DNA of 64,000 nt from Gammaproteobacteria bacterium (GTDB lineage Bacteria > Pseudomonadota > Gammaproteobacteria > Enterobacterales > Psychrobiaceae): contig JABSRU010000010.1 in the NCBI GenBank assembly GCA_013214965.1, positions 1 through 64,000 of the forward strand, read 5' to 3'. Position numbers and translations under genes: made by a program. The notes under the pieces are model-generated. The model made no database searches and was not told where the DNA came from. It saw nothing but the letters and a program-made list of their open reading frames with translations. Within the stretch, counting starts at the first letter, position 1; every line of letters starts with the position of its first letter. Below, piece by piece: positions 37,432-38,604 of the stretch.

Positions 37432-37437
37432 CAAGAT

Positions 37438-37466
37438 AAAGGCTTCGTGATGAAGCCTTTTTTATA
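37438..37466 (+). terminator. yaiL terminator
   Basis: The 9-bp stem AAAGGCTTC/GAAGCCTTT (37438-37446 with 37452-37460) with a 5-nt loop and T tract. Confidence 0.9.
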
Positions 37467-37724
37467 AGAAAATACTATTGTTGTGTTTCATCCTGCTGAT
37501 AGCAATCATCACCTATAACCTTTAACTATCAACGACCACTGATAACATCAACGACTCCCCTACCTTCTTATAACCGATACCACAAAAATCATTGATAACC
37601 TGACGCAAGCATTAAGGTTTAGAACCGTTTCGACCATAGATCAACAACAATGTAATAACGATAAATTCAAACGCTTCCTCCTTTTTTAGCGAATAAATTC
37701 CCGTTAGTCCATCAACAACTCTGC

Positions 37725-37732
37725 TTAACTAA
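37725..37732. repeat. Left target-site duplication TTAACTAA
   Basis: Direct repeat of 37957-37964, flanking the 224-bp element on its left. Confidence 0.8.
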
Positions 37733-37956
37733 CCTGAACTCGGGATAAAGAGCTTTGTATCAAGATGAGATATAAGATGTTTTAATTTTAAAGTGTGTAA
37801 TTAAAAACAAAACATCAGCTCGTGTGACCCAGTGGCGAGATTTAGGCGGGTATCAAGGCATTTTTACGAGCGAATAGCTGGCTATTTCGAATAAAAATAA
37901 CGCCGATAACCATTTAAATAGCGTTATTGGGTAAAGTTTCTTATCCCGAGCTCAGG
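37733..37956. mobile_element. 224-bp MITE-like element in the peptidase pseudogene
   Basis: Terminal inverted repeats CCTGAACTCGGGATAA (left) and TTATCCCGAGCTCAGG (right) match at 15 of 16 positions and are bounded by an 8-bp direct repeat TTAACTAA (37725-37732 and 37957-37964). Removing the element and one duplicate restores the peptidase reading frame as LCLTKINQ. It has no ORF for a transposase; an internal imperfect hairpin is centred near 37880. Family not assigned. Confidence 0.82.
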
Positions 37957-37964
37957 TTAACTAA
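37957..37964. repeat. Right target-site duplication TTAACTAA
   Basis: Direct repeat of 37725-37732; it is in frame with the second peptidase fragment. Confidence 0.8.
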
Positions 37965-38354
37965 GATTAATCAGTACAGTTTATTATATTACTGGCCTGC
38001 TCAACGTCATGACCTCAAGCCAATATGGTTGATGGCACACCAAGATGTCGTGCCAGCGGCTAATGCTGACCAGTGGCAACATCTGCCATTCTCTGGTTAT
38101 GTCTCTGATACCACGATTGGGGGTCGACGTGCGCTGGATATAAATCGGGGGGAATGATAACAAGCAAACCGACAATATTTATCGCTTTGTGGTTAATCGC
38201 TATTAACCCGTAAGCCTCAAACAAATGCATGGCATTGATGAACAGATAAAAATAAAAGATTACCTCGATAGTATAAAATTTTACCAACAATTAATAATAA
38301 ATAGCCAATAAGCTCTTGTTTGAATGAATAATAAGCAAACGGTTTTTTTTGCTG

Positions 38355-38394: not shown

Positions 38395-38486
38395 GGAGAG
38401 GTGGCCGAGTGGCCGAAGGCGCTCCCCTGCTAAGGGAGTATGGGCTTTAAATCCCATCGAGGGTTCGAATCCCTCCTTCTCCGCCA
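38395..38486 (+). tRNA. tRNA-Ser(GCU)
   Basis: A 92-nt class II tRNA with a long variable arm. Acceptor GGAGAGG pairs with CTTCTCC, discriminator G and encoded CCA; the anticodon loop CCTGCTAAG gives GCU, reading AGC/AGU. The T arm has GGTTCGAATCC. It is followed 41 bp on by tRNA-Arg, the same pairing as the serV-argV cluster of E. coli. Confidence 0.96.
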
Positions 38487-38527
38487 TTTATTTTCTTATT
38501 TTGTCAACGGAAATAAATGTTTTATGC

Positions 38528-38604
38528 GCGCATGTAGCTCAGCTGGATAGAGTACCTGGCTACGAACCAGGCGGTCGGAGGTTCGACTCCTTCCATGCGC
38601 GCCA
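38528..38604 (+). tRNA. tRNA-Arg(ACG)
   Basis: A 77-nt cloverleaf: acceptor GCGCATG/CATGCGC, discriminator G, encoded CCA; anticodon stem CTGGC..., loop TACGAAC giving ACG, whose first base is normally deaminated to inosine by TadA to read CGU/CGC/CGA. T loop GGTTCGACTCC. Likely in one transcript with tRNA-Ser. Confidence 0.96.

Follow-up and report, generated by a model that had tools for sequence, protein, structure and literature searches.

A conserved hairpin core inside an IS982-type MITE and in MITEs with other ends

The window, the whole 64,000-nucleotide stretch of DNA that was analysed, contains a 226-bp insertion with borders ACC...GGT, lying in the remnant of a peptidase gene (Table 1). 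The insertion is short, carries terminal inverted repeats and no transposase gene, is multicopy and is flanked by target duplications, and it is thus a non-autonomous transposon, a miniature inverted-repeat transposable element (MITE), with ends of the IS982 type. The flanks rejoined without the element read ...NKFPLVHQQLCLTKINQYSLLYYWP..., as the earlier note had reconstructed, and the downstream flank matches M20 peptidases (NCBIfam NF006112, E 1.7e-12), with a score far under the model cut-off because the peptidase is only a fragment; a Pfam search of the remnant gave no match. The peptidase is also broken independently of the insertion, as its apparent upstream part, judged by eye, lies in a different frame from the downstream part. 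Genes for tRNA-Ser(gct) and tRNA-Arg(acg) follow directly after the remnant (window 38395-38604).

Table 1. Positions in the window of the MITE, its structured core and the interrupted gene
Feature	Position	Strand	Remark
IS982-type MITE, 226 bp (ACC...GGT)	37732-37957	+ (the folding strand)	
Left terminal repeat ACCTGAACTCGGGATAA	37732-37748	+	same left end in IS982 elements
Right terminal repeat, minus-strand reading ACCTGAGCTCGGGATAA	37941-37957	-	
TAACTA, left copy of the 6-bp target duplication	37726-37731	.	
TAACTA, right copy of the 6-bp target duplication	37958-37963	.	
Structured domain plus right end	37825-37957	+	covariance model R1, 122.4 bits (copy within the model)
Core hairpin	37839-37921	+	core-only model R2, 75.8 bits (copy within the model)
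Stem P1	5' arm 37828-37837, 3' arm 37922-37931	+	
Stem P2	5' arm 37841-37848, 3' arm 37911-37918	+	
Internal-loop side CAAGGC, conserved	37854-37859	+	
Stem P3	5' arm 37860-37867, 3' arm 37891-37898	+	
Apical stem P4	5' arm GAATAG 37872-37877, 3' arm CTATTT 37882-37887	+	
Internal-loop side AACGC, conserved	37899-37903	+	
M20-family peptidase remnant, downstream part of the interrupted gene	37966-38154	+	NF006112 match

Inverted repeats at the ends had been proposed, and they are indeed present (CCTGAACTCGGGATAA and TTATCCCGAGCTCAGG), with the terminal repeats alike at 16 of 17 bases; in agreement with the proposal that no transposase lies inside, no ORF of at least 80 aa was found within the 226-bp element. 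The borders had been placed differently, giving a 224-bp element with an 8-bp target duplication. While TTAACTAA does flank the element on the left and on the right, the length of the duplication did not hold in a border test on 150 distinct elements, pooled from all loci in hand and allowing up to two substitutions per end. With ACC...GGT borders the direct repeat was exactly 6 bp in 89 of the 150 elements, 7 bp in 7 and 8 bp in 1, and a repeat of 1-5 bp was found in 41 and none in 12; as a control for chance, 6-bp identity between flanks taken from different elements occurred in 6.1% of shuffles. The CC...GG borders of the earlier reading gave 8 bp in only 12/150 and 9 bp in 2/150. We therefore corrected the element to 226 bp with the 6-bp duplication TAACTA and rejected the 8-bp duplication, which had counted TAACTA together with one base of the element at either border. 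The target pattern is TAnnTA-like, with an initial T and a final A in all 89 of the 89 elements with an exact 6-bp repeat.

No orthologous empty site of the window element was found in nine genomes of the genus, as the flank 37433-37724 is present in its own genome only (1/9). Since the window site had no counterpart there, we used the uninterrupted target of another element instead. At locus L274 a 194-bp element of the same type, flanked by TAAGTA left and right, interrupts another MITE. The same 162-bp host MITE is uninterrupted at locus L279, and the lengths (362 = 162 + 194 + 6) agree with a 6-bp duplication. Both loci are from genomes other than that of the window, and the host MITEs stand at different loci. 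In this pair (L274:1861-2220 and L279:2389-2548) a core-bearing MITE lies within the loop of a MITE with the same loop motif.

Searching the element against its own genome (G000, 144 contigs) returned 22 match pieces, including five further near-full-length copies, as expected from the claim that it is multicopy; full-size copies are on contigs C33, C55, C44 (two), C72 and C100. There are also deletion derivatives of 176, 83, 83 and 54 bp. Two sites hold the 83-bp derivative, which lacks the core, and at one of them a perfect 7-bp duplication is present. This hints that movement does not need the core, but the 6-bp direct repeat at the junction of the derivative means that the deletion may have happened twice independently.

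The earlier note had expected a related transposase elsewhere and an insertion sequence with the same ends, leaving the family unnamed. Such a search led to three insertion sequences (loci L074, L076 and L078) whose left end is identical to that of the MITE over 17 bp and whose transposases belong to the IS982 family (NF033520, E 4e-69 to 1e-81). Two of them are longer elements in related genomes (L074 in genome G044, L076 in genome G013), and the third, L078, lies on contig C64 of the own genome and has a shortened transposase gene (NF033520, E 4.2e-69; 262 aa vs 295 aa in relatives). The right end of the IS982 elements is merely similar to that of the MITE (ACCTGAGATCGGTTTAA). Two of the three elements have 6-bp duplications, the same length as that of the MITE and not the 8 bp expected earlier. 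Among 11 IS-sized end pairs the duplication was 6 bp in five, 7 bp in one and 0-2 bp in five; L177 and L209, which are IS-sized pairs without a 6- or 7-bp duplication, have truncated ORFs or no long ORF. The shared left end and the 6-bp duplications at some of the IS982 elements assign the element to the IS982-type MITEs, and an IS982 transposase probably moves it. Another IS982 group, whose ends are variants such as TAACCTCAGATCTGGATAA, was seen at L069, L070 and L071 (C90:629, C3:58 and C112:48005, respectively), where by eye the copies L069 and L071 are interrupted by other MITEs.

The end pattern TAACCTGANNTCNGGATAA, with at most one mismatch, was found in 22 of 58 genomes including the own genome (14 of 37 genera), and the reversed control of the pattern gave 3 hits in total. 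In named genomes at least 118 stretches carry end matches; the 80 listed include pairs or single ends from Shewanella, Rheinheimera, Colwellia, Pseudoalteromonas, Catenovulum, Thalassotalea, Vibrio, Moritella and others, and single end matches in Bacteroidota, Patescibacteria and similar groups may be due to chance. Element sizes peak at about 194 and 227 bp. A search of plasmids and phages with the element (blastn, E 1e-5) gave no match. A record of the cyanobacterium Nostoc sp. 106C (L163:3927-4150) contains, by transfer or contamination, an element of 224 bp that shares these ends and the TAACTA duplication and has no R1 match.

The right-hand 133 nt of the element form a long hairpin with stems P1-P4 and a conserved tip, ATAG-nn-CTAT, and both strands fold far better than shuffled sequences (z -7.3 and -8.5). 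An imperfect internal hairpin at about 37860-37898 had been noticed before; it is real and corresponds to the two inner stems of this longer hairpin. The first extraction gave 96 unique elements, 88 of them longer than 100 bp, and by blastn 74 of the 88 have interiors that link as one family. For the alignment we took the 75 of the 96 that were 180-245 bp long, left out four that were unrelated inside (71 remaining), dropped seven more rows with indels or decay (64) and reduced the redundancy at 90% to 33 sequences. MAFFT, blind to structure, was then used to align their right-hand 133 nt. RNAalifold predicted 28 pairs, 24 of them with double changes, and six tip pairs were added by inspection. 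Over the resulting 34 pairs and 33 sequences, 90.1% of cells were paired, compared with 67.3% in shuffled and 39-46% in slid alignments, and 236 cells held double changes (72.7 shuffled, 44-78 slid). Double changes were likewise in excess in an alignment of 40 sequences for R2 (240 vs 90.2 shuffled and 50-91 slid) and in two sets of matches, both model-fitted and found partly through CAAGGC/AACGC: 98 matches, 90 of them distinct (676 vs 196.5), and 50 R2 matches from outside the order, 45 of the best loci (389 vs 132.5 shuffled and 62-137 slid). The most conserved columns of the 50-match set are those of the loop and tip. In that set CAAGGC was exact in 45, AACGC in 36 and both in 34, frequencies that are inflated because the matches were chosen by the model, a choice that does not explain the changes in the stems. 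Thus, the interior is shown statistically to be a conserved single-strand hairpin core kept by compensatory changes.

Which strand folds can be read from the mismatches. When both strands were folded by alifold, the 37 shared pairs of the 33 sequences held 76 G-T and 21 A-C combinations; all 43 pairs of the element strand held 128 and 23, respectively, and for the opposite strand, with 41 predicted pairs, the counts were 79 and 78. As a fold predicted from the opposite strand would tend to equalise the two counts, the evidence for asymmetry comes from the shared pairs and from the folding energies, which were lower on the element strand in 31 of 33 sequences. In the 50 matches outside the order there were 109 G-T and 11 A-C combinations, and the energy was lower on the element strand in 45 of 50. 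The excess of G-T over A-C mismatches implies that one strand folds, a result that fits RNA and single-stranded DNA (ssDNA) equally.

The core with its end (R1, E <=0.001) was found in 76 of 247 genomes sampled in the order, in 22 of 87 genera. In overlapping samples that both include the own genome, the core alone (R2, E <=1e-4) was found in 95 of the 321 genomes from the class, representing 76 of 243 genera, and in 68 of the 299 from the phylum, representing 33 of 154 genera. At one locus a cobalamin riboswitch (L385:1592-1800) starts a few bases past the core match at 1501-1585. In the own genome R2 gave 25 matches at E <=0.01, one of which is the reverse strand of another, and the weaker R1 matches there come from MITEs of other kinds, which share the core but differ in their ends. 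MITEs of family B have ends TACCAAT...ATTGGTA, are about 157 bp long and have 3-bp duplications TWA; among 50 scanned end pairs, many of them spurious, the duplication was exactly 3 bp in 23 (chance, 14%) and 5 bp in one. Family C, also of about 157 bp, has ends TACCCGTG..., and its nine scanned pairs showed duplications of 2 bp in three, 4 bp in two and none in four; a TA duplication is suggested, the ends themselves beginning with TA and 4/9 pairs showing none. In the own genome family B was seen at L233, L235, L238 and L239 (C78, C54, C56 and C55, respectively) and family C at L232, L234, L236, L364, L367 and L368. Automatic end detection is unreliable in distant genomes, where both motifs were exact in 32 of 63 loci and many arms were overextended, so end types are given for families A, B and C only. 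In IS982-type elements themselves R2 had no match in 13 loci, representing 11 distinct copies, and among 24 core-positive genomes selected from the 76, 13 had an IS982 match (nine over the cut-off) and 11 had none. As the same core is carried by MITEs whose ends differ, among them a family with a different duplication length, it is not tied to one end type, and its conservation in differently ended mobile elements suggests a common function.

To relate the core to its surroundings we placed 125 elements, nine of them at locus edges, among genes defined by simple ORF calling. Relative to the direction of the core, the flanking genes were convergent in 39 cases, both opposed in 38, both along in 27 and divergent in 12. 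Where both neighbours point alike there was no clear orientation bias (27 with vs 38 against, two-sided p 0.21), a split that gives no sign of preferential transcription of the core strand, and an orientation bias of the 3'-UTR type was not supported. In 143 of 232 cases the neighbouring gene has its 3' end towards the element, which is what one would expect if insertions there are tolerated. When the right-hand neighbour points at the element, its frame ends at most 4 bases from the element in 25 of 77 cases; the TA-ACC junction can supply a stop codon.

The explanation that we consider best, and to which we give somewhat better than even chances, is an IS982-type MITE whose structured core works at the RNA level and is bound by a factor of the cell. 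The MITE inserted at TAACTA with duplication of the 6 bp, an IS982 transposase being its probable mover. Once the locus is transcribed the core would act as RNA, and a widespread cellular RNA-binding or processing factor may recognise its loop and tip. Binding of such a factor would protect, process or silence the transcript and in this way make insertions tolerable; mobility would come from the ends and maintenance from the core.

The preference for one strand would fit as well a core that serves as an ssDNA hairpin, which a DNA-processing protein would recognise when replication, transposition or DNA uptake exposes it, and the lack of a clear bias with respect to neighbouring transcription also agrees with this idea. 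We regard it as unlikely: DDE transposition is known to require only the ends, and the core-less 83-bp derivative is found at two sites, though the repeat at its junction allows two origins. An ordinary MITE whose arms are kept complementary by quasi-palindrome template switching, in the absence of selection, is decidedly improbable. Imperfect palindromes such as these elements are a substrate of template-switch correction, which should, however, erase the mismatched loop, where CAAGGC is exact in 45/50 and AACGC in 36/50 matches (partly ascertained by the model), and should not favour G-T over A-C (109 to 11 in the same matches, 76 to 21 in the shared pairs). The two main sizes for these ends, about 194 and 227 bp, and the interior common to 74 of the 88 elements above 100 bp might instead recall an internal enhancer of IS982 transposition. 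To this we assign very little probability, as R2 found no match in the 13 IS982-type loci (11 distinct copies), the core is also present in MITEs with other ends, and 11 of the 24 selected core-positive genomes are without an IS982 match.

MITEs are usually regarded as filler between transposon ends. In the present case some of this filler is folded, is among the most conserved sequence and is common to differently ended MITEs, which suggests that selection keeps the core for a shared reason. It also raises the testable question of what binds CAAGGC/AACGC and whether the core lowers the cost of insertion. In a wider reading, whose chances we put a little short of even, the core would represent a structured-RNA class spread over the phylum, presumably Pseudomonadota, which resides inside MITEs independently of the transposase. 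Already joined to three or more sets of ends, it would be a passenger open to any MITE, with Correia elements as one distant branch.

We compared the core with known systems. Rfam gave only rliB for the window stretch (E 4.1, 12.8 bits vs a cut-off of 40), and for 28 further loci nine tRNAs and one cobalamin riboswitch, and nothing else. A limited literature search of titles and abstract beginnings revealed, among the matches listed, no core common to different MITE families, and on this basis we take the core to be undescribed so far. According to the part of the report available, Cardinium cOegib has a MITE of the IS982 family of about 240 bp (PMC9769881), which is likewise short, without transposase and with IS982-like ends; the available text does not mention a hairpin, secondary structure, direct repeat or target site duplication. 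The interior of the element described here differs from it, as far as that text goes, in being a conserved hairpin spread far past one lineage. REP/RAYT palindromes, in the excerpt at hand, are 20-40 bp long, with GTAG/CGTC tags and a tyrosine transposase (PMC3733652); they too are multicopy hairpins, but the window element has long ends and target duplications. The Transposase-resistance RNA motif, as partially described, is a candidate structured RNA of several phyla, given there without an Rfam accession (PMC2864571). Named after transposases, it may be identical with the core or distinct from it.

Correia elements have ends TATAGTGGATTAA and a TA target. With this end we gathered 11 stretches, on which R2 scored E 1.8e-5 (L410) and 2.5e-4 at three places, all at 25-29 bits; three further matches were at E 0.07-0.49, and five of the 11 stretches had none. 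In these four best matches, weak as they are, CAAGGC and CAACGC or a near variant are aligned. The contigs with Correia-type ends on which R2 aligns CAAGGC and CAACGC are three viral ones, two of which hold one identical element (L404 and L408). The ends of the window element (ACCTGAACTCGGGATAA vs TATAGTGGATTAA), the weak score and the much altered P3/P4 of the Correia matches set the two apart, and membership in the Correia elements was rejected on account of the ends and of the 6-bp duplication in place of TA. For the Correia (NEMIS) elements of Neisseria, the parts of the reports available describe a core, cleavage by RNase III and an IHF site (PMC2649163, PMC2229807), and the likeness lies in a MITE with a directional core and a hairpin RNA that is an RNase III substrate; they are the nearest experimentally studied analogue of the role proposed here. 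Judged from the aligned motifs, a distant kinship of the core with Correia elements is possible. If this weak link is true, the Correia element of pathogenic Neisseria would join a much wider family.
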